Part shown: in pieces, positions 8,612-64,000 of the stretch | Numbering within the stretch: position 1 is the stretch's first letter | How the letters are laid out: each line of letters opens with the position of its first letter | NCBI GenBank assembly: GCA_964035015.1 | Contig: OZ035998.1 | Location: forward strand, 28,602,029-28,666,028 | Direction: 5' to 3' | Origin: Corallium rubrum | Taxonomy: Eukaryota; Cnidaria; Anthozoa; Scleralcyonacea; Coralliidae | DNA: 64,000 nucleotides | Position numbers and translations under genes: made by a program | Notes under the pieces: generated by a model | What the model was told of the DNA's origin: nothing | The model's input: the letters and a program-made list of their open reading frames with translations, nothing else | The model's database searches: none

Positions 8612-8842
8612 GCCAGACTGCTAACTTTGCTGTGTGTGCGGAAGATATTCCACATGCAATTTTTCCACGTGCTCACACTCACATATGCAATTACCAATGT
8701 GCTCCATCAAAATAGTGGACGAATAAAATTATATCCAAAAAATATGGATTTTTTGCTAATACGGGTCAGCCCGTATTTCGCGCGCATTTTTTGTCGCAAA
8801 AAAAGTATTCCGCGCGCGGTTAGCAAAGTTAGCAGTCTGGGG
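8612..8842. mobile_element. Small MITE in intron of LOTUS/RRM gene
   Basis: The ends CCAGACTGCTAACTTTGC and GCAAAGTTAGCAGTCTGG are exact inverted copies flanking about 190 bases. It lies just downstream (minus strand) of the exon-1 splice donor, so the apparent C-terminal extension of the LOTUS reading frame is transposon sequence rather than protein. Confidence 0.8.
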
Positions 8843-8922
8843 GAAAGGTAGTCATGGTCACAGCATGAATAACATGTTTCACAGCAATAATCGTTTTTAC
8901 TGATCGAAGCACCATCACTAAC

Positions 8923-9411
8923 CTCAGTGCAGTCAGGTGGAAGCTTTGCAACATAAACCTGATAAAACCCACTTTTATTAGGTAACATTTCATTTCCTCC
9001 CCACGTCTCAACCACTGTGATCTTCAAGCTATCGCCATCTTGTTGAACCCTCCGACCAGACGGGGGCATTAAGCAAGGGGGAGTCGTATCCGTATTGCTT
9101 TGAGACAACTGATCGCTTGACACACTCTTTACGTTCTTTTTCGCATGTGACGACATATAAATACCTTTTACCTCCATGGCATAAACACGATTCTCTTTAT
9201 CTTTGGTGCTGTACTGCAAACGACATACATCGGGTACGGCGCATAAAAACTCTCGTAATGATTTAAAACCAAGCTTTCTCCAATCCAGTCTTTCGCCAGC
9301 TAACTCGCAATAGTCTCTCTCAATTTTACTTTCTTTTACACCATTACTAGATACTAAAACCGAGTGTAAAAAGCTCTTTAGTTCGCTTGGCACTGTCTGA
9401 GGCCCTGCCAT
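8923..9411 (-). CDS. LOTUS (OST-HTH) domain plus start of RRM, exon 1
   Basis: The first ATG in frame is at 9411; the frame stays open upstream to 9501 but begins there with GTG, so the ATG (MAGPQTVPSELKSFLHSV) is preferred. Residues about 7-80 form a LOTUS/OST-HTH winged helix: the segments VPSELKSFLHSVL, KLGFKSLREFLCAVPDV and RVYAMEV match the pattern of the TDRD5/TDRD7 N-terminal LOTUS. An Asn/Ser-rich linker follows, then FYQVYVAKLPPDCTE, which is RRM strand 1. The exon ends at GAG|GTTAGT, a strong donor, phase 0. LOTUS domains of this class bind Vasa-type helicases and RNA in germ granules (family knowledge). The role in germ-cell/piRNA biology is inferred. The RRM continues in the exon at 982-1390. 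Confidence 0.75.
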
Positions 9412-9486
9412 GTTTTTCTCTTCAACACGTTGTGAGATTGAGCCCACGGATACAACAAGAGGTTGGTCTTCGGTTTTTCCATCCTT

Positions 9487-9636
9487 AAGCCGGTTTTCCA
9501 CTTGGCGATTTTTCTGGCGCGAAGTTTCTTTTGTTCGAATTCAATAGATTTCTGATTAGTTCCAGCTCAGAGCTCATGAGACAAAAGAAAAACTCGCTTC
9601 GCGCGAAAAAAGTCGCCTAGTGGAAAATCGGCTTTA
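9487..9636. mobile_element. Short inverted-repeat element at the 5' side of the LOTUS gene
   Basis: The sequence ccggttttccacttggcgat is mirrored by gtcgcctagtggaaaatcgg near 9612-9631, with GGCGCGAAG / CTTCGCGCG inside. It ends about 75 bases upstream of the chosen ATG, so it probably forms part of the promoter or 5' UTR and would supply the upstream in-frame residues if they were translated. Confidence 0.6.
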
Positions 9637-9775: not shown

Positions 9776-10078
9776 TGGGGGGGGGGGGGGGACATGAATG
9801 AACGAACGAACGAACGAACGAACGAACGAACGAACGAACGAACGAACGAACGAACGAACGAACGAACGAACGAACGAACGAACGAACGAACGAACGAACG
9901 AACGAACGAACGAACGAACGAACGAACGAACGAACGAACGAACGAACGAACGAACGAACGAACGAACGAACGAACGAACGAACGAACGAACGAACGAACG
10001 AACGAACGAACGAACGAACGAACGAACGAACGAACGAACGAACGAACGAACGAACGAACGAACGAACGAATGAATGTT
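9776..10078. repeat. Poly-G tract followed by (GAAC)n array
   Basis: A G run of about 15 bases precedes about 70 perfect GAAC units (about 9794-10073). No interruption was seen. The three open frames on either strand (NERT and SFVR repeats) are period-4 artefacts. Confidence 0.95.
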
Positions 10079-19843: not shown

Positions 19844-52819
<32,976 letters not shown>

Positions 52820-53705: not shown

Positions 53706-56130
53706 TAACTAAACAGCAAAACTAACTATGGGTATTGTCGTTTTGCTATGCTAACGCAGTTTCAAAGACTGAATAAGTCTACGAAGTTTGAGTCAGTTTT
53801 AGCGAAAGATATACCTGACTTTCAATCATGCATTTCAGTTATGCGTTCAGTAAAGCAGAGAAAACGAAACTTTTTATTTTTTTATTTGTTTGATTATAAT
53901 ACACATTTCTTTCTGTGAGACAAGTTGCAAGAAAAAGATGACGTGTGTCACATGCATGGGGTAGTGTACAACAGGCACAGATTTCCATTTTTTGCGACCA
54001 GTTTGCACTGAAAACGCTAAGTGTGACAGGGCCTCGACATACTTGGGGTTTTTTTTGTAACAGTATTTTAAGCGTGATTTTTATATTATAATGCATATTC
54101 TGACGTGAAGATGTGATTTCGTATCAGGTTATATACATGATGTGTGGAACTGATCGATGGCGTGTGCTGTACAGCGCGCTGCCTCTCACTACTTGGGAGT
54201 TACAAGGTGTTTACTGCCAAGCTCATACGCTCATTTGATCCACTGGCCACTAGTGAACCCACTAGGGCGTTTATCGCCAAGCTCATTCTCCCAGCTGACC
54301 CCTAGGGTGTTTACTGTCCGCTCGTACGCTCAGCTAGGCTGTAAACACCCTAGTACGTCAGCTGCATGGTACTCTGAGGTAACGTATATAAGCTATCAAA
54401 GACGTATGTGAGTCGAGCTACGGTAAAGCGCGAACTACCCTTATTTTTTTCAAATATTACGTAAATATCGTTCTTCAATAATCGACAAATACCAAAGGTG
54501 ATCTTTAATGATTTATTTAAAACATTTTTGTAGTTCATGAATTAGTAACAATACGAACTAAAGTTTGGATCAACTATATTTCCACTATAGTCCACCAACT
54601 GATGTTGATTTCTGTATTTTAAGTTAGGATTAATAAATAGTTGCTTATATGAATACATCGATGTTCTATGTACAATCGACAAACAGACTCGTTAAAGACG
54701 ATTTCTATGTATATAAAGGACCTACCAAGGTTTTCCTAAATTATTTTATTACATCACCTTTCAACTTCCATGGAAAATCGAGACATATACTGCAATTCCA
54801 CGTACAGTAACTATACACTAACTATTGTAATAACCCATGCAATTTGGAGTTCTAGATTGAGATTCGAGATATTATCCTGTTCGGACTGAGGCATAACAAC
54901 GGTTATTACATAGACACTGAGATTTCCGATAAATAAACAAAGAAGGCTTTCAAATTCTCTAAGCTTTCATTTCCTATATGATTTTTCTTACTGCATGGTG
55001 AATTGTATCGAATCGATTTTCTAATTTGCGATACGCTTTTTTTTCACTAGTGGAATACAGCGTATCATTGTTCTAGTCGGCTAGCAGTTTTCCGTTCAAT
55101 GTTGTTTTCAGCAAACTCGCTGGTGTCAACATATTTTGTCAACATTTTGTTAAAACTGTACTTCTCGAAGAAAATTTGTAAAAACTTCATTGTGAGCAAT
55201 GCTAGCAAGAACTTCACGTACGCCAGTATAGTACTTTGAGCTCTAGATTGGACTCGAACCCGCAACTTTTCAAATGCTAACCAGACACCCTAACTAATAA
55301 GCCACTAAAACTTAGATGGCAAACCGAGGACGTTTATGGTATTAATTTTAGACATCTGAAGATAGTTCAATACTTTCAAAACGCCGCAGTACTGCTAAAA
55401 GGATTGTAGTGTCTGTATTGAAGTCCATCTTAATTAAGCAACAGTTTTCATCGTTTGGCGAGTTGACGTCGTCCTGAGGACGTGAAAATGCTCTAAGTGG
55501 CATATAAATAACGAGGAGGGTACAAAGATTACCCATGGAATAGAAATTATTCATTCTCTTTGCTTGCAACTACAATTCCTTTGTTTAAAGATGTTGTCGT
55601 TGGGGTTGATGTTGTAGATCTTAACGTCTCTAATAAATTGAAGTATAGGAGCATGTGTTGCAAGTCGCTTTGCACATACCGTTAAACTCGTTTCCAGTTA
55701 TAAATATCGTAAACAACCTTGGTCAGTTGGTCTGACATTTGAGTTCTAATAGTTGAATTGTTAGAGCATCGGGCTAGCATTTGAAACAAGAGAGAAAGAA
55801 GTATCAGAGGCAATGAACAGTAATGTTCTAGTCTTATCCTGATTTCTCTTAAGGTAGCATTAACAAAAAAATGCCAAAATATAAAGAATTTTATTTCAGT
55901 TTTGTAACAAATTATTGTATGTTCTATCAGGACAAATTATTTAATTGTATTGCAACGTTTTAATATTTTTTGGCAAACCTTTCACAGGTTAGATGTAGTT
56001 TTGATAAGTTAGATATTTTTCTTATTTTATCGTGTTTTGAACTCAGGAAACGTAATTAATTATGTTGTGACTACAATGCTATCATCAATAACAAATGAAC
56101 AAAACTGAATTTTAAAAATCGCAGAACAGA
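53706..56130. other. Intergenic interval between convergent genes
   Basis: This lies between the plus-strand AIP3 gene and the minus-strand receptor-domain gene. It contains imperfect repeats of ctagggtgtttactg / caagctcat at 54190-54350 and two SINE fragments. The minus-strand frame at 55348-55569 has a hydrophobic start but no recognised domain. Confidence 0.5.
55250..55325 (-). repeat. tRNA-derived SINE head
   Basis: The minus strand contains TTAGTTAGGGTGTCTGGTTA (A-box region) and GGGTTCGAGTCCA (B box). It is related to the copy at 15473. Confidence 0.65.
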
Positions 56131-56134
56131 AAGA

Positions 56135-56140
56135 TTTATT
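56135..56140 (-). terminator. Candidate poly(A) signal AATAAA
   Basis: TTTATT on the plus strand reads AATAAA on the minus strand about 250 bases past the stop codon at 56391. This position supports the gene ending at that stop. Confidence 0.5.
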
Positions 56141-56390
56141 TGTTACAGAATTGAAATAAAAAAAATCATACCTGAGGAATTAGGATAGAATGGGACCCAT
56201 TACTATAACGTATATTTCCTCACTTACTTTATGCTCTCTTCATATGAACAAAAAAAAAAATGATATATTTTGCTACGCCGCCGTCGCTATACTACTCGAG
56301 TCGTGCGGATTTATACTGTCGTAGTTTCAGTGAGATACTGTATTAAATAGAACGGAAATTGTACCTTTGTTATATATTATGCTATTAGTT

Positions 56391-56626
56391 CTACAAATTA
56401 ATTTGGCTATTTTTCGGTAAGCTGCATTTCTCGGTATTGCAAAAACAGAACAAATTATTTGGCCCAAAAGACGCACATCTCGGTTTGGGTTCTTTATTCC
56501 AACACCCTCTTTCTCGAAGCTTCAGCGTCGTTCCAACCTTTACCCACCAGCTGAAACACGAAAATTCCTGACACTGTTTAAACTTTTTTACACTTTGCGA
56601 ATCTCCCATCTTATAATAAGCGCATA
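56391..56626 (-). CDS. Receptor-domain gene, last exon: TGF-beta type II receptor-like ectodomain
   Basis: The acceptor CTTTTTTTAG|TA joins in phase 1 and gives V-CAYYKMGDSQSVKKF, then QCQEFSCFSWWVKVGTTLKL, RERGCWNKEPKPRCASFG and NNLFCFCNTEKC. The order C-A-x-x-K, CF.xW.....G, GCW and FC.C....C is that of ACVR2/BMPR2 ectodomains (three-finger fold). Eight cysteines are seen where type II receptors usually have ten, and the usual CCC triplet reads CFC. The frame then ends SLPKNSQINL-stop. No transmembrane helix or kinase follows, so the product would be secreted unless an unseen splice (for example a weak GTAGAA just before the stop) continues it. Confidence 0.75.
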
Positions 56627-59600
56627 CTAAAAAAAGAGAAAATTAACAAGAAATTAATTTTTTTTTTCAGTCGTATTTTGGGGTTTGAAAAACTAGAGAG
56701 GCGTTTGTGTGTGAATAAGTCATTTGGCTATATAACGGCTTATAGAGGCAGGCAATCTCGCCCCATTTTTGGCAATTCGTACAGAAAAAAAAATGTCCTA
56801 AAATTGCACAAAATCTTATAAGAACGGTTTTATATTATATAAAAAACATAAGAGATACTAGAAACCTGCACAAAACTACGGATGGTCAAAATTAAATCGA
56901 GAATGAAAGGGATTGAAAATGTGACCTCTTGATTTACAGCAATCAAGTTTGTGTAAAAACTTAGTCTTAAAGGTTCAAAAATACTCCATGGTTGTTCGGC
57001 GACTCGTATTTCGTAACTGAATTAATTTTGAAATTTCCAGCTTAGAGAATCAACACAGACAATCGAGGCCCTTTATAAAGCTAAAGTGCTAACTCTTTGT
57101 TTGATTCAAATCTCTTTCTTCGTTCGTCCTGATTAATCGGCTCATCTTGATGTGAGATATTGGTTATAAAGTTTTAGGTATGGCGATAACGGTGCTAGTG
57201 CTAGTGCTAGTGCTTCTGTGACGCTGTTGGTGTTGGTGACGGTGTTGGCGTTGGTGATCGTGTTGCATTGGTGATGGTACTGATGACGCTATTGGTGTTG
57301 ATGAAGGTTTTGGCGTTGGTGATGGTGACAGTTTTGGATTGGTGGTGACGGTAATGGCGATGGCAATGGTGATGGTGACTGTGTTGGCATTGGTGATAGT
57401 GATTGTGATGGTGTTGCCCTTGGTGGTGGTGACGGTAATGGGGAGGTGATATGATGGTGATGTTGATGCATGATGATGTTCATGCTGACAGTGATGCTGA
57501 TTGTGACGCTGACAGTAATGGTGATGATAATACAGCTATATTTAAAAGCTGCTGTAAATCGAGGATCTGTGCTTGAAATTCTTTCAAAATTTGGTGTTCT
57601 ACCACAATCATTCTAAGGGAGAATGAAATCAAAATAAAATTATCACTTTCAGAAGATTATTTCATTTTCTCTTTAAACACGAACTTAATTCCGCCTTAAA
57701 TCTGGGTGAATACGAAATATAGTCGTACCTGGAACTTTTATCTTGACGGTTATTGGTGATGATGGCCTGGACGCAATCCCCTTCTTATACGATGATACTT
57801 CAACCACGGAAGTAGCGTTGAGGTAGAGATCATCAAATGAGAAGAAACGAGTACTGGGTTTTAAGTACTTCGATCTATGACCACTTTCGCTTACGGTATA
57901 TAGAATAGCTACGTATCCATCAATCGCATTACGGACATCCTCAGAGTTGGTTATAAGCACTGTGATAGAACGTCGTAACTGCTTGGCCAGTCTTACTTTG
58001 GGAACTGCAGGTAAAAAGAAAAAAAATTATTAGAATGTGTCGTGTTATAGACCACTTTCATAATAGTAACTAATTTGAATATTCTTTTATGTGCATCTTA
58101 ATAAGCCTTTCTAGCCTCGTTTGTGTGTCTGCAATTCAAAAGAATCTTTGCTTCATAACGAGGCTAGGAAGGCTTATTTAGATGTACATAAAAGAATATC
58201 GTCCTCAGGGCCATTTGTAGGGGCTGGGCCAAGATGGCGGCCCAATACAAAATGGTGGGAACAAATGGCCATGGCACAGCTGCCAAAAATGCCCCATAAA
58301 ATGGCGTATTTTTTCCCTCGGACCAAGTCTTCACTAAGTTGATCACGTCAAGTTAGGCTCAATTTTTTCTGAAGATTTTAGTTCAACTTGACTGACCCAA
58401 ACTGAAAACAATCAAAACTGACATTCATTTCCAAATACGTTGTGGAATTATTAAAACAAAGACTTCTAATAAATATCTGTAATTGCTTAGTATTTATCAT
58501 TTGCTTCACCGTTGTATCAAATTCGCAAGAAACTGGATTGCCGTTGTCTGGACGGGGCCGCCTTCTTTTCGGAAGTTCGTTTTTGAAATATCTCAGTTTG
58601 TTTGATATGTAAATATCACATGTTGTGACATACACGTACATAATGAGTTCTCACAGAAGGTTATATATCTTCGCTATTGTCGAACGAAATCACTTGAATT
58701 TCTACATGTGTAGTGTTGTTTGTTGTTGCTTTAAATATATGGTTTACATGCACTTTGTTTGGTGAAACGATTTTTGGCACTAGTGAAAAATACCATATGA
58801 ACGTTCTCGTTGACTGGCGTTTACCGTCCCAATGTTGCCTTGAACTGTCCAGCAAAACATGGTTAATAAGCAAAACAATTAAGCAAGATTGCTTGTTTGT
58901 TAAAGTAGGCTTTCAACCCTGGCGCGCGCAATGTTGTCGTGGGACAACCTTATCATTTTTTCTCTCTAACATTTCAATGTTAACTATAGAAAATTATGTT
59001 TGTCTTATTTGAAAGAATGGTACGCTGAAAATGACAGGGGAACATTGTTTGCAGTTTGACGTTTCTTGGCTTTGCTGTTGAGACGTTGGAGGCTGTTTGA
59101 TATGTAAATTAAAGATTTTGACGTCATATATGCATCATGACCTGGAAAAGGTCATATATTGTCAGTGCTATTATCAAATCAACTTAATTCGAAGGAAGGG
59201 CGTGTTTCTCTCAAATTAGGGTAAGAGCAACAAAAATTACAACTACACATTTTTAAATTTCTGATTAACAAACTGTCTTGCGATGGTAATCCAAGTGAAC
59301 AAAACAACTCTTGTGCCAAACAACATCACTAATTTCGGCAAAAGACAATCTTGCCGTTCGCCATCTTGTTGTAAGACCTTGCCTAATTAACTAACGTCAT
59401 AAGCTGGGTAAACATTATGAAACTTATTCTTCTGGCAGCTGAATTTCTGTGGTATGTTTTTAATGCGTTGTGGTTTAATCAAGAATGAAAATCATGTACA
59501 AAAAAATAAGTTTCAGACTTTTATATTTGAAAGCATGGCTAACTAAAGTTTTCGCTTTACCCAGCTTGTGACGTCACATGCATATCAAAAATGTATCCAA

Positions 59601-59754
59601 GATGGCAGATACTGATTCAGATTAGCAAATTATGGAATAGCTTGCCAGTTGATTTGAAACTTTCATCTACTTTGTCGTCTTTCAAGAAGGGTTTGGCAAC
59701 TCAAACAACCAACACCTCAGTTCCAAATTAAATTAAATAACACTATATAAATTT

Positions 59755-59800
<46 letters not shown>

Positions 59801-60644
59801 AAAGCTTCTAGGACAGCGTCGGCCACGGTTGAAATCCAAATATTACCAGGGTTAAGAAAAATCTTCTCAAGAAGATTTTTCTCTTTTTTTCAGGCCAACG
59901 TGACTTAACCCTGGTAATATTTATATATATATATATATATACGTCACACTATTATTTCCTATCGGCCCTTATGAAAAGCAATTTTGTAACTAGATTAAGA
60001 TTCCGAGTTTAAATAAAGACTCTCTCTCCCACAACACCAAACATTATATTTGATAATAGCAACCATATGTAACCTACGATAACTCACTATGCACGTGTGA
60101 CGTCAAAATGTTTAATTTGCATATCAAACAAACTCAAATATCTCAACAACGAAGCAAGGAAACAAAAAATTCGCTTAATAGGCAGACTGTACTTCATAAA
60201 CAGAGAGAGGGAAATGGGGGAAAGAGAGGAGGAGAGACGGAGATGGATAAAATAGGTAAAAAAAAAAGAAGGGAAAAACCAAATGGGGAGGAATATTTGC
60301 ATGCAAGTAGGAAAAGGGAACGGAAGGGGAGAGACATAAGAGAAGAGAAAGGAGAAGGGAAGAGAGAGAAAAAGGAGAGTGGGAAAAAGAAAGAGATGAA
60401 GATGGATACAAACCTGGCAGTTGATTCGCTTGGGTCCTGGTTGAATTATTACCGTTACAAAAATCTGTATTGCAGCATTTCATAAACTTGGCAGAACAAT
60501 AGAGGGATGCATGTGTGTTATCCAAGCAACCGTAGGATGCAACGGGTCCGCTGGTTTCAGTAAAGCAGTATCGTTGACGAGTATAACAGCTACCCAGTCT
60601 GTCATCACAATATTCCTTGGAACATTTACAGCGAATAGCAATTG
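56391..60644 (-). CDS. Type I ectodomain - FN3 - type II ectodomain protein (partial at 5' end)
   Basis: Three exons (60414-60644, 57729-58004, 56391-56626) on the minus strand all begin and end in phase 1 and join in one frame. They encode, in order, a BMP/TGF-beta type I receptor-like cysteine-rich domain, a fibronectin type III domain and an activin/BMP type II receptor-like cysteine-rich domain, then a stop. The first exon enters in phase 1, so at least a signal-peptide exon lies upstream (right) and was not located. A candidate poly(A) signal lies at 56135. I infer an extracellular protein able to hold a ligand with both receptor-type modules. It could act as an antagonist, carrier or co-receptor; which of these cannot be told from sequence. 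I know of no standard family with this order of domains. An alternative is two neighbouring genes whose exons happen to be in phase. Confidence 0.65.
57180..57530. repeat. Degenerate GGTGAT/GGTGTT repeat
   Basis: About 350 bases of imperfect hexamer (ttggtgatggtgacggtg...) lie in the intron between the FN3 and type II-like exons. The His/Ser/Pro-rich frames are by-products. Confidence 0.85.
57729..58004 (-). CDS. Receptor-domain gene, middle exon: FN3 domain
   Basis: The acceptor TTTTTACCTGCAG and donor CCAG|GTACGA give a phase 1-1 exon. The protein runs PKVRLAKQLRRSITVLITNS, then DGYVAILYTVSESG, FSFDDLYLNATSVVEVSSYK and KGIASRPSSPITVKIKVPG. The order of strands (GYVAILY as strand C, L-x-L-N/TxxxVxVxxY as F, GIASRPSSPITVK as G) is that of a fibronectin type III domain. 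FN3 exons are classically phase 1-1 and easily shuffled, which would explain its place between two receptor-like modules. Confidence 0.75.
58049..58200. mobile_element. Truncated copy of the 'TATAGACCACTTTCATA' MITE
   Basis: The left end and both inner arms match 14097-14291 (aataagcctttctagcctcg and its inverse); the final 40 bases are missing. Confidence 0.8.
58560..59620. repeat. Mosaic of MITE fragments in intron of the receptor-domain gene
   Basis: Pieces of the AAAGTGCCTAT family occur at about 58560-58690 and 58975-59170. A relative of the 14430-14927 element follows at about 59240-59610 (gccatcttgttgtaag ... atccaagatggcaga, inverted). No exon was recognised. Confidence 0.6.
59757..59945. 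repeat. (TA)n tracts around a hairpin
   Basis: Two TA runs flank an inverted repeat (atattaccagggttaag ... cttaaccctggtaatat), with a second small hairpin (aaaatcttctcaagaagattt) inside. Confidence 0.85.
60414..60644 (-). CDS. Receptor-domain gene, first visible exon: TGF-beta/BMP type I receptor-like ectodomain
   Basis: A long pyrimidine tract ends TTTATTCCAG, then CA-ATT opens IAIRCKCSKEYCDDRLGSCY, TRQRYCFTETSGPVASYGCL, DNTHASLYCSAKF and MKCCNTDFCN. The cysteine order C.C....C......C.....CF...GC.........C....CC....CN fits the BMPR1/ALK-type Activin_recp domain closely, including the terminal CCxxxxCN box. The exon ends CTGCCAG|GTTTGT, phase 1. Ly6-type proteins share the fold, but the C.C start and CF/GC pairs favour the receptor family. 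Confidence 0.8.
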
Positions 60645-61063
60645 CTGGAATAAACAAAATAAAAGGTAGAAAATAAAGTGAAATTTATAAAATGTCTTAA
60701 AATGTGTGAGAGAGAAAAGCCTGGAGAGAAAGCAGATAATCCATTTGCTGAACAAAAACCTTGACATGTTCTCCATTGCAATATAGAATTACTATCATTG
60801 TTTTTAAATTTATGACTTTTTGGTTCTAAGGGGCTGTTCATATATGATACAGCATTTATGTCACCAAAATCTTATTACGACTATTTGAGTAGTGCAAAAT
60901 GACACAATAAAGCAAAATTGCCGTTTTTCTGTAAGTATAGCACACAGGGTAGTCCAAATCTTTTTGGTAATGCATTCCTTATTCTAGGACCATATGTGAT
61001 AAACGCGTTTAGTTAAGTTTGACTGTTCTATGAAAATATTACAACTGCATCTATATATAGGAT

Positions 61064-61332
61064 CTACAATCAGTGACAAAAGTGTTGGGACACTTCAACC
61101 TAAACGACAATATTTCCACTCCAAGTATTCCCCAGTCCACCTGTTCAATGTTGGTGACCCTTTAGGCTTTCGTCTCAGCGCTTACTGAGTTCCTTACTTT
61201 AAATTCAACATTAAATAGGGAGGGGGAGGGGGAGGGAGGGACACACTTTAATACGAAAAAAAATTGAAACAAATATTAGGTTATTACCAACAATGCGAGG
61301 TGTCCCAAGGTATTTTGTCACTGATTGTAGTT
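61064..61332. mobile_element. Tc1/mariner-like MITE
   Basis: The ends tacaatcagtgacaaaagtg and ttttgtcactgattgta are inverted, with TA at both outer edges consistent with a TA target. It contains a G/A-rich run (61215-61240). Confidence 0.8.
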
Positions 61333-61359
61333 TGATATTTATGAATGTCACGAGTTATT

Positions 61360-62245
61360 TTAAGACCCCGTTTACACGATGCCGGTACAATTTGAAAACA
61401 GAACAAAATCATACCTTGCGTTTACACGATACCGGCACAAAAATGACATGAAAACGGCACAAGAAGACGGGTTCCTTGACGGCACGAAATGAAAACGGAA
61501 CACTAACGGGTATCGTGTAAACGCCCGTGCCGTAACCGTTTGATGACGGTAATCACGATATATACGACCACAGTATTCAGGTCAGCAGTATTCACAAAGT
61601 CCTCTCAATTCTCATTGGAAGAGAATAGTCGCACGCTAATCTGTCACTAGAGAGCTTAAGCATATTAGGCGTTTTTGAGACACGGACGGTGACCAGAAGA
61701 ACAGGAATACAATACAGAACTACTGAACCGCGTATTCTTTGAAAAGACTTTTTTACCCAAAAGAAAGGCTATGAATAATCACATAATCTAGGCTGTTAGC
61801 TCATAAGCTTAAATTTCATCTTTATATAAAAATACAGATCCCTTTATTTTATATTGTAATGTAAAAAAATTATTCCCCTCAAAATGCAAGTTTCAGTCTA
61901 CTTTAAAAGTATGTCTATTGTAGTTAAACAACGATGACAGGCCTCAACGTTCTAGAAGTTCCCGTCGTCTCAAGAACGCGAAAACGCTCTCAATGACGTC
62001 TTCTGTAGAACGACGACGGCGTTCTCTTTGCTCTTGGAATTTTAAATTGCTCATTATCATTGCTTTGAATGAAAAATGCTGTTGAATTCAATCGCCGTCC
62101 GTGGCTCTAAAACGTCTGTTGCTTAAGCTGTCTATTATATTATACCGGCACCGTGTAAACGCAAGACTTTTTGGCCTGTATTTACACACCGGCATGATTT
62201 TGTTCCGGATTCAAATTGTACCGGCATCGTGTAGACGTGGTCTGA
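61360..62245. mobile_element. MITE with 'CGTTTACACGATGCCGG' ends
   Basis: The left end agaccccgtttacacgatgc is mirrored by gcatcgtgtagacgtggtct. Extra copies of the subterminal motif (tttacacgataccggcac, accggcaccgtgtaaacgca) lie inside each end. Non-coding. Confidence 0.8.
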
Positions 62246-62689
62246 ATAAGGAGTTTAAATTATCAGGGGCACGTTTGCTAACAATATCATACATAAGATT
62301 AGATAGGTTTTCAAAACGTATGAATGATACAGGTAAAACTTTCCGAGACGTTTCCCTTGACAAGTAAGAACGCCTGGCGTTAGATAGAGTATACTAAAAT
62401 AGTAAAGTCTGCATGGTTTGAAAACAAACGACTCGGTTGGCAAGGAGTTAATCAAGTAATATTAAAGAACGAGGCAATTAAATATAATGAACTTCCACAA
62501 TTTATACTGACCCTATAAACATTGACATACAGAAATCATGAAAGTGCGACAGGTATATATCCTATAATTGTACCTCTTATTTTTTTAAAAATATAGCTCC
62601 CTCAGTGCAGTGTTTACACAATGTTTATTAAAGGGCAGTAAAACGGAAAATCTTCTCTTTAATTTTGATTTTATTTAGAAGTACTTTCC

Positions 62690-62885
62690 GTATGAGAAAT
62701 ATATCGTTCTTATCATAGTCAATCGAGATATGGTCTGGAAACTCGGCAAACTTCAAAGCGCCTATAATGAGCTGTGATTTTATGTTGAACCGGTATGGAT
62801 GAATAACCGATTGTTTGAAGTAATATTTCAAGTCCTCTGCCCAGTACTTCCCTGGTATTTCAAGTCCCTTCACGTTGTGCAATTC
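62690..62885. repeat. Dispersed repeat shared with 25.7-26.0 kb
   Basis: The sequences tatcatagtcaatcgagata then tggaaactcggcaaacttca then cctataatgagctgtgattt match blocks at 25743-25800 and 25995-26020 (the latter inverted). The minus-strand frame here is repeat-derived. Confidence 0.75.
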
Positions 62886-63121
62886 AGCGCTTCTGATTGA
62901 TTGATTATCTCATGAATTATTAATGAGTTTGAGAAAGTTAGTTATTTGCACTGGTTATTCGGATTGTTAGTCAATCACATTTATCACACGGGAGACTAAT
63001 GCTCATTATTTTGTCCTGGTGCAAGTCACGCTACTTCTCTGGCCTTTTTAGAGTTTTCTTTTTCCATAAAAATTTGTTGATCAGACCAGTTGTATATATA
63101 ATAAATCTCTTATAAAAGGTT

Positions 63122-63184
63122 TCGGTGTGTAGTATCGCTGTATATTTTTACTCGTAAAAATATACAGCGATACTACACACCAAA
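63122..63184. repeat. Perfect palindrome with 29-30-bp arms
   Basis: The sequence ggtgtgtagtatcgctgtat and its exact complement meet at a 2-base loop (tc). Outer bases continue as a weaker match (ataagag / ctaataag). Confidence 0.9.
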
Positions 63185-63189
63185 ACATC

Positions 63190-64000
63190 TAATAAGATAT
63201 ATTTATTACATCAATATCTCATCATATTCCAGAGATATTCAGGTTTTTGTAAAATGAGATGCCTTATGACGTCATCTATTCACCATAGATCAAACAAACG
63301 TCCCAAATGAGGAATATATCAAGCAGTAACTGTGTACATTGCAATGTACCATTCGTATAAGAACAACTTCAATTAAAGTTTCAGCACAATCTATACCTAT
63401 TATTTCGGTAGATATTCCTCCTTTACGAAATTAGTGGAGTAGATGACGGCATAAGGTATCCTATTTGCATTTTTTAAAACCAAAATATATTTGGGACAAG
63501 ATGAGAAATTGAAAATGCGAAAAGGCTATTGTTCTTTATTTGAAAAACATTGCTAAATAAGATCAAAATTAAGATAGAGAATTTTGGCGTCTTACTGCCC
63601 CTTTATAATTATCTTTGTATAGTTATCGATTTAGAACTAATCGGAAATCATTTTTTTTTATGATAAGAACTTCCTAATCACCTGAGCGAGCGATGGGCGT
63701 TTCCGCCCTGTTTGGAAACCATTTATCTTTTTGGCATGACTTAACTTCTTTTGCGTAAAACTGCGTGAACGTAAATTTAGTATATCCTGTATTCATGGAG
63801 CTAGAATCGATAGTATCCTGGAAAAGCCCTTAAGTTGCAACACGTCAATGATGCAAATAACACGATTCTCCACAGCAATATATAAAGAGGGTTCACAATA
63901 ATAAGCTTCTTAATTCGATATCTGGCTGATCTAATCCCGACTAACGCCTTCGTTATTTAGGAATCCCATATCCCGTTGTTCGATCTCCTTATTTCTCGAA
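63190..64000. other. No recognised feature
   Basis: This is AT-rich sequence to the window edge. I see no exon, array or clear inverted repeat. Confidence 0.4.

Follow-up and report, generated by a model that had tools for sequence, protein, structure and literature searches.

Three exons on one strand predicted to encode a secreted protein with a type I receptor-like LU module, an FN3-like spacer and a type II receptor-like LU module

The minus strand of the 64,000-nt stretch of DNA analysed here (the window) carries three exons that join in a single reading frame, an earlier observation that the present analysis confirmed. Exon 1 (60414..60644) encodes a type I receptor-like LU module with 10 Cys (IAIRCKC...CCNTDFCN), exon 2 (57729..58004) an FN3-like module of 91 full residues and 0 Cys, and exon 3 (56391..56626), the last coding exon, a type II receptor-like module with 8 Cys (CAYY...CFSWW...GCW...FCFC....C) and the stop codon. 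Splice sites and frame delimit exons 1 and 2 as phase 1-1 exons, and exon 3 is entered in phase 1. The two introns on this strand, both of phase 1, are 2409 nt (58005..60413, separating modules 1 and 2) and 1102 nt in length (56627..57728, separating modules 2 and 3). Both junctions of the joined exons fall in phase 1 and the frame stays open for 246 codons before the stop, in keeping with the preliminary description of three exons in one frame and one phase. Exon 3 ends in TTG TAG, and the first AATAAA 3' of the stop (56135..56140, read on the minus strand from 56140 to 56135) lies at a distance of 250 nt, so that the stop directly after the last module and the nearby AATAAA of the same description are both borne out. 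The splice sites had been called good as a whole; by an ad hoc weight matrix this holds for the acceptors of exons 1, 2 and 3 (ttccag, ctgcag and tttttttag, scoring 5.8, 7.2 and 5.7) and for the donor of exon 2 (CCAG/gtac, 4.1), but the donor of exon 1 (CCAG/gttt) is weak at 1.9. The donors of four genuine receptor ectodomains in the same genome score 1.5 to 8.9 with the same matrix.

Genome searches with each of the three exons returned no close paralogue. Two of the loci that these searches produced (L009 and L020) were set aside as chance matches by their reading frames, and the search with exon 2 matched a further locus (L017) at E 1.18. Positions 54,002-64,000 and the 10 kb beyond them were scanned with Pfam, stops being read as X. 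Zero families came up on the minus strand, and the single plus-strand match, Epiglycanin_C (E=0.033), was below the threshold; these long-region scans are insensitive to the extent that they likewise missed exons 1 and 2. The joined protein matched zero families in NCBIfam, a prokaryote library.

The preliminary description had suggested that a signal-peptide exon be located to the right of exon 1, and a fitting candidate with a TATA box does lie there, 12.4 kb upstream of exon 1 on the minus strand and outside the window (contig C8:28675089-28675134; MRSLFLLVISVVISN/A, CAAACG/gtaaga). Its TATAAA stands 93 nt ahead of the ATG, and its score was matched by 0 of 60 first-order Markov simulations. 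A runner-up at 84373-84235 scored 3.13, as against 4.78 for the chosen exon, and a hydrophobic stretch in frame just before exon 1 was rejected as a signal peptide because it has no ATG and overlaps the pyrimidine tract of the acceptor. The proposed first intron would measure 12,416 nt, of which the share within the window is 60645..64000; zero phase 1-1 exons of at least 35 residues were found between the candidate signal exon and exon 1 with a donor threshold of 2, a threshold below which exon 1 itself (1.9) would fall. It is plausible that the candidate signal exon and exons 1-3 form one four-exon gene, and we infer that, if the candidate is used as proposed, the product would be secreted as a soluble protein from a precursor of 262 residues.

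No kinase had been noted beside these modules, and this was upheld when two receptor-kinase queries gave zero matches at E<=1 in the 94 kb searched; the same queries do detect kinase exons in two receptors of this genome, the type II receptor (E 7e-57) and the C49 type I receptor (E 6e-59), in each case near the corresponding ectodomain exons. The preliminary description had also allowed that the last exon might continue to a transmembrane helix and kinase, and such a continuation was looked for: the sole GT at the end of exon 3 scores -5.9, compared with the 1.5 to 8.9 of the four genuine ectodomain donors, a GT inside the exon at 56547 (3.5) would delete most of the module if used, and 0 TM-like spliceable exons were found from exon 3 down to 46.9 kb. 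Every 19-mer of the mature chain averages a hydropathy of 0.63 or less. Neither the membrane helix nor the Ser/Thr kinase by which type I and type II receptors are recognised was found for the predicted product.

By its sequence the module of exon 3 is type II-like, and its type II signature is clearer than the type I signature of exon 1. In pairwise tests against 18 references (among the vertebrate ones, a stretch of ACVR2B was confirmed against a database entry), the best 4 were the four type II ectodomains, with z values of 9.6 for the genome's own type II receptor, 6.1 for ACVR2B, 6.0 for ACVR2A and 5.2 for BMPR2; the next reference reached 2.9, and against each of the four exon 3 scored above 500 of 500 cysteine-preserving shuffles. 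Aligned to the same four ectodomains, exon 3 has Cys 1 and 4-10 and lacks Cys 2 and 3, as read from an alignment other than the two-sequence MAFFT alignments, which misplace the first cysteines. Loss of the LU 2-3 disulfide is described for the BMPR2/ACVR2 ectodomains (PMC6600238, in excerpt) and exon 3 shares it; the extra disulfide of BMPR2/ACVR2 is missing in exon 3 and in the genome's own type II receptor alike. The hydrophobic triad with which ActRIIB meets the ligand knuckle consists of Tyr60, Trp78 and Phe101 (PMC12415261, in excerpt), and Phe, Trp and Phe of exon 3 align with these positions when matched by eye, a correspondence that concerns the presence of the residues and not binding. 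Exon 3 further shares with the own type II receptor (C8:40.69 Mb) and with ACVR2/BMPR2 the eight core Cys in order, the elements CF..W, GCW and FC.C, the triad positions and the phase 1 start. It differs from them in having no membrane helix or kinase, in having a stop close to the site of the donor in the receptor exon and in carrying Ser after the last Cys, and its identity to the own type II receptor is 25-30 percent. These comparisons sustain the ACVR2/BMPR2 likeness that had been proposed for the last module.

Other searches with exon 3 were less discriminating. Activin type IIB receptor chains were among its weak PDB matches (E=5.1-7.6) and Pfam gave zero matches. Profile scores separate receptor ectodomains from other LU proteins poorly: with a type II profile exon 3 scored 13.0 bits and PSCA 12.3, and with a human-only type II profile exon 3 scored 11.2 bits, the type I receptor ALK2 scored 15.5, and exon 3 ranked four among 2595 open frames. 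When the genome was searched reciprocally, with the ectodomain of its type II receptor as query, exon 3 was not among the matches listed.

The module of exon 1 appears, less clearly, to be a ten-cysteine LU domain that leans to type I. Its highest z values were for BMPR1B (8.5), an own type I receptor (5.6) and PSCA (4.7, third of the 18 references); z was at least 3.0 for 5 of the 9 type I references, and exon 1 exceeded 500 of 500 cysteine-preserving shuffles against 3 of these 9 and also against PSCA. With BMPR1-type I receptors, of which the nearest in the genome is at C20:5.02 Mb, it has in common the ten Cys, the C-x-C start, GCL, the CCxxDxCN end and the single phase 1-1 exon, and it differs from them in that neither a membrane helix nor a GS box nor a kinase was found and in that the likeness is common to LU domains in general. 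Ten Cys with Asn after the tenth, by which LU domains are recognised, are present in exon 1 (CN); exon 3, with 8 Cys and CS, has Ser where LU domains carry Asn. The stretch between Cys 7 and 8 carries type I ligand contacts, and it measures 6 residues in exon 1, as against 10-13 in six human type I receptors and 13-16 in three of the genome's own. The best PDB matches of exon 1 were three-finger venom proteins, and its match to the BAMBI model of Pfam had E=4.2. Exon 1 scored 15.1 bits with a type I profile, compared with 14.8 for CD59 and 14.3 for PSCA, and 12.4 bits with a human-only one, compared with 14.2 for PSCA; with two type I profiles it ranked five among the 2595 open frames, the own type II exon also being ahead of it. 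The BMPR1-like character once given to the first module is less firm: the ten-Cys frame, C-x-C start and phase 1-1 exon speak for it, but PSCA is nearly as close, the best PDB matches are venom proteins and the Cys 7-8 stretch is short.

The fibronectin type III fold is a seven-stranded beta sandwich. Exon 2 is FN3-like at a sub-threshold level: fn3 (PF00041) was its sole Pfam match (E=0.14, 12.8 bits, cut-off 25), which agrees with the FN3 domain that had been placed in the middle but falls short of a significant assignment, and the PDB gave zero matches up to E=10. A domain search for Activin_recp and fn3 had been proposed as a check, and its outcome was mixed. Exon 1 matched Activin_recp (PF01064) below the threshold (E=0.25, 12.8 bits, cut-off 20.9) as exon 2 did fn3, but exon 3 and the joined protein (0 families) had no Pfam match; the joined protein had three weak PDB matches, of which two were three-finger proteins from venom and one was CDw150. 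For the four genuine ectodomains of the genome, matches to Activin_recp range from E 0.0057 to 8e-9, and 3 of the 4 pass the cut-off, the fourth having 18.0 bits, so that the modules of exons 1 and 3 are more divergent than those of working receptors. The finding is based on anatomy and comparative tests and not on a significant database match.

By their splice signals, each of the four genuine receptor ectodomains in this genome is a single phase 1-1 exon. Ordinary LU domains are typically encoded by two exons, the intron being placed at the loop 2 tip (PMC6600238, in excerpt), an arrangement that is not seen here, where exons 1 and 3 each hold one whole module. As excerpted, the same source describes uPAR and C4.4A, which resemble the predicted protein in having more than one LU domain per chain, but which consist of LU repeats only, with the generic two exons per LU, whereas here an FN3-like module stands between two unlike single-exon LU modules. 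The BAMBI pseudoreceptor has a type I-like ectodomain without a kinase and interferes with signalling (PMC11226491, in excerpt); it is membrane-bound by name and carries that single ectodomain, whereas the present product is predicted to be soluble, with no 19-mer above 0.63, and to include a type II-like module as well. A parallel in architecture is offered by the engineered soluble ActRIIB:ALK pairs that trap ligands (Kumar et al. 2021, PMC8443706, in excerpt), in which type I and type II ectodomains are likewise united on one soluble molecule without a kinase. Those are Fc heterodimers of two chains with mammalian domains; the present product is predicted to be natural and single-chained, with divergent modules joined by an FN3-like spacer, and its ligand binding is putative. 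The domain order had been reported as unfamiliar, and among the matches listed from the open-licence PMC literature we found this engineered example but no natural chain with both types of ectodomain.

Based on these comparisons, the reading that we favour, with a probability of about one half, is that the gene specifies a secreted protein, built by exon shuffling, that acts as antagonist or carrier of a BMP/activin-class ligand. The outer parts of type I and type II receptors normally cooperate in catching BMP/activin ligands. A signal peptide, the type I receptor-like LU, the FN3-like spacer, the type II receptor-like LU and the stop would follow one another in a chain assembled from shuffled phase 1-1 exons for extracellular modules, in which the exon of the type II module became terminal. 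The Phe/Trp/Phe triad would let the type II-like module grip the knuckle epitope of the ligand. From its place on the spacer, the type I-like module might occupy the wrist site on that dimer, make a second and divergent contact, or make none. With neither membrane anchor nor kinase, a bound ligand would be sequestered or ferried without signalling. That the predicted protein binds, antagonises or transports ligand is what we infer from its modules. The weak donor of exon 1 and the long first intron are among the points against an antagonist or carrier. The 'two-headed trap' of the preliminary description would be a special form of it, a natural single-chain heterobivalent trap evolved by exon shuffling whose modules grip the wrist and the knuckle of the same BMP/activin dimer, and that form seems unlikely to us.

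A less likely but serious alternative is that the gene encodes a secreted LU-FN3-LU protein that was not derived from receptors, or is no longer receptor-like, and that binds a partner other than TGF-beta ligands in adhesion, matrix or some other three-finger role. Exon 1 scores with PSCA and three-finger proteins about as well as with several type I receptors, PSCA and ALK2 equal or exceed the profile scores of exon 3, the Pfam matches are sub-threshold or none, and LU domains are known to diversify and often to lose the 2-3 disulfide (PMC6600238, in excerpt). Against this reading, the top 4 of 18 references for exon 3 are all type II ectodomains, led by that of this genome, and the ligand triad is kept; the single phase 1-1 exons, like those of the genome's receptor ectodomains, and the type I-style C-x-C start of exon 1 likewise count against it. 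Somewhat doubtful is a narrower form of the antagonist or carrier, within which it falls together with two-headed binding, where only the type II-like module would bind and module 1 would be a degenerate LU domain acting as stabiliser or matrix anchor. The clearer type II signature and the short Cys 7-8 stretch of exon 1 (6 residues) are in its favour, but exon 1 retains its ten Cys and its CCxxDxCN end, and in pairwise comparison it comes closest to BMPR1B and an own type I receptor. It is improbable that no such protein is made, either from a dying gene or from exons of different genes, as the weak exon 1 donor and the lack of a close paralogue for any exon might suggest, given the undamaged frame, the kept cysteine frames, the matching phases, the stop and AATAAA, the fitting signal exon with its TATA box and the zero kinase remnants found in 94 kb. 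A disguised membrane receptor, in which exon 3 is spliced to a membrane and kinase exon lying far away, much as real receptors of this genome run on beyond their phase 1 ectodomain exon, is very hard to credit in view of the poor terminal donor of exon 3, the lack of a TM-like spliceable exon to 46.9 kb and the zero receptor-kinase matches in 94 kb.

Provided that the protein is made and functions, nature would have produced an antagonist from two receptor-ectodomain modules, of a kind met only in engineered form among the literature matches listed. It would also show LU domains combined by shuffling with a module of another family, which is described for a few proteins only in a review that uses the term 'proto-module' (PMC6600238, in excerpt). 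Should the heterobivalent trap prove true, an anthozoan would have preceded the drug designers and might use the protein in the shaping of morphogen gradients or in ligand carriage. The secreted components of BMP signalling are reported to differ between groups (PMC11226491, in excerpt), and a made and functional product of this gene would add an extra regulator of BMP signalling in a cnidarian-like lineage.

The three minus-strand exons of the preliminary description stand as proposed, in their positions, splice dinucleotides, phase and common frame. Exon 1 (60644-60414 of the window) and exon 2 (58004-57729) each have an AG acceptor and a GT donor in place, and exon 3 (56626-56391), the last coding exon, ends at TAG. 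The exon 1/2 and exon 2/3 junctions are both phase 1, a single frame is open for 246 codons up to the TAG, and the nearest AATAAA lies 250 nt 3' of that stop, in agreement with the spacing of about 250 bases described before. A minus-strand search for exons ending in phase 1, extending 33,356 bases upstream of exon 1, yielded two candidates for the signal-peptide exon that had been expected to the right. The clearly better one, at C8:28675134-28675089 (minus strand of contig OZ035998.1), encodes MRSLFLLVISVVISN/A and has the donor CAAACG/gtaaga; its score of 4.78 was matched by 0 of 60 first-order Markov sequences. The other candidates in this stretch scored lower (minus strand, none in phase 0 and one in phase 2; opposite strand, two, one and one in phases 0, 1 and 2). 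TATAAA occurs 93 nt upstream of the candidate's ATG. We infer that this exon splices to exon 1; no intervening phase 1-1 exon of at least 35 residues appeared between them in a scan with a donor threshold of 2, which might overlook weak-donor exons because it excludes even exon 1 (donor 1.9). The predicted introns are 12,416, 2,409 and 1,102 nt long, and the spliced precursor would have 262 residues.

Elsewhere in the window, a minus-strand open frame at 8710-9540 contains an OST-HTH/LOTUS domain (E 1.5e-9), a type of domain that occurs in germ-granule proteins. Tandem repeats include about 70 copies of GAAC at 9796-10074, a 113-base unit at 30180-30741 (a 229-base period is reported as well) and a very long, 7-kb GTTT tetranucleotide array at 39777-46803 (~1757 copies, 99 percent match). 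Elsewhere in the genome, a search for GFP-family proteins gave a single match with E no higher than 0.001, at C15:1058146-1058367. Its nearest PDB relatives are drFP583-like red fluorescent proteins, which come from anthozoans; this makes a cnidarian source plausible.

The possibility that exon 3 continues into a membrane helix and kinase, as in an ordinary receptor, was looked for and finds no good donor, and no exon to carry it in the stretches searched. On the donor matrix, the GT where exon 3 ends has a score of -5.9, against 1.5 to 8.9 for the donors of four genuine receptor ectodomains in this genome, and the one GT within the exon that scores 3.5 would, if used, remove most of the module. 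Between exon 3 and 46.9 kb the search found no spliceable exon encoding a membrane-like helix, and neither of two kinase queries (human ACVR2A and TGFBR1) had a match at E 1 or better in the 94 kb around the gene, although they recovered the adjoining kinase exons of both control receptors (type II on C8, type I on contig C49); this agrees with the absence of a kinase claimed earlier. No 19-residue average in the mature chain exceeds a hydropathy of 0.63, and the chain has three glycosylation motifs, two of which overlap. The product, if made, is soluble, as judged from the lack of a usable exon 3 donor, membrane exon, kinase or hydrophobic 19-mer.

Two kinase queries identified at least three type I and at least one type II receptor genes in the genome. 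One type I kinase frame, at C49:3238677-3238021 (locus L022, also in L005), has VAVR for VAVK, HRN for HRD and SKG for SKN, and nonetheless matches Pfam kinase families; this suggests a naturally occurring type I pseudokinase receptor that may serve as a decoy. In 4/4 cases (splice signals judged by eye) the receptor ectodomain is a single exon with phase 1 introns on both sides. Genes for LU domains typically have two exons per domain with an intron at loop 2 (PMC6600238). Exons 1 and 3 share the pattern of the receptors, with a whole module in one exon, and fit an origin by exon shuffling. From the last cysteine, exon 3 reaches its stop at ten residues and the real type II exon its donor at eleven to twelve.

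The reading of the last module as ACVR2/BMPR2-like is sustained by pairwise comparison with 18 references (500 cysteine-preserving shuffles each). The four highest scores of exon 3 were all to type II ectodomains (that of this genome, z 9.6; ACVR2B, 6.1; ACVR2A, 6.0; BMPR2, 5.2), with 0/500 shuffles as good for each, and the fifth reference reached z 2.9. Aligned with these, exon 3 has cysteines 1 and 4-10 and is missing 2 and 3, a loss that PMC6600238 describes for BMPR2/ACVR2; the positions of the ActRIIB hydrophobic triad, taken from PMC12415261, are Phe, Trp and Phe. Searching the genome with exon 3 returned the ectodomain exon of the real type II receptor (L008, followed by kinase exons; E 0.9, 30 percent identity); the remaining match, L009, was taken as chance. 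Pfam gave no match to exon 3, and the PDB search gave nine sequences, headed by a synergistic-type venom protein (E 0.65), the other eight being activin receptor chains (seven named type IIB; E 5.1-7.6). With a type II profile, exon 3 scored 13.0 bits, exceeding 300/300 cysteine-preserving shuffles. When 4550 open frames, drawn from the window and from 29 of 51 loci, were scanned, it came second, behind the real type II exon, with a modest E (0.044). Against the type II reading, PSCA (12.3) and BMPR1A (11.8) come close on the profile that gave 13.0 bits, a human-only profile gave exon 3 11.2 bits (top shuffle 11.0; fourth among 2595 open frames) and ALK2 15.5, and the reciprocal genome search with the type II ectodomain did not return exon 3. 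We class the last module as type II-like. The genome's own type II ectodomain (C8:40688008-40688277; L018, L008) has eight cysteines, lacks the extra disulfide of BMPR2/ACVR2, and matches Pfam Activin_recp and, under the cut-off, Quiver (E 4e-5, 25 bits).

For the first module, described earlier as BMPR1-like, the cysteine framework and the best pairwise partner agree with that description, while other LU proteins intrude upon it. All ten cysteines of a plesiotypic LU domain are present in exon 1, with Asn after the tenth. The module starts with C-x-C, as do the six human type I receptors compared and two of the three from this genome; the five LU proteins compared have C-x-x-C. Its pairwise order is BMPR1B (z 8.5), the type I receptor at 5.02 Mb of contig C20 (5.6), PSCA (4.7) and BMPR1A (4.5), and z was at least 3.0 for five of the nine type I references and for a single LU reference out of five. 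On a type I profile including three receptors of this genome, the exon 1 frame came fourth of 4550, just after those three (E 0.0063); on two profiles without some or all of them it came fifth of 2595, with the genome's type II exon also ahead. CD59 (14.8) and PSCA (14.3) approach exon 1 (15.1) on the human-plus-C49 profile, and PSCA (14.2) exceeds it (12.4) on the human-only one. The PDB search gave six sequences, led by four venom three-finger proteins (E 0.11-0.6) and followed by PSCA (1.2) and BMPR1B (4.2). With moderate confidence we regard exon 1 as type I-like. Its cysteines 7 and 8 are separated by just 6 residues (10-13 in human and 13-16 in own type I receptors), which makes it doubtful that the module could bind ligand in the full type I manner.

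The FN3 assignment of the middle module had the fn3 family as its sole Pfam match, at a sub-threshold E of 0.14, and no PDB match up to E 10; the genome held one further weak match (E 1.18). Exon 2 is likely to be FN3 because of its size, its lack of cysteines and its single phase 1-1 exon.

No natural protein of this kind was found among the literature matches listed. Engineered soluble pairs of type I and type II ectodomains sequester ligands, as PMC8443706 describes. That only the type II-like module binds ligand seems rather unlikely, and that both modules grip one ligand dimer less likely again. One- and two-headed binding together have a probability of roughly 0.5, which is that of our main reading: for a soluble protein that joins a type I-like module to a type II-like ligand face, the simplest role would be ligand antagonist or carrier.
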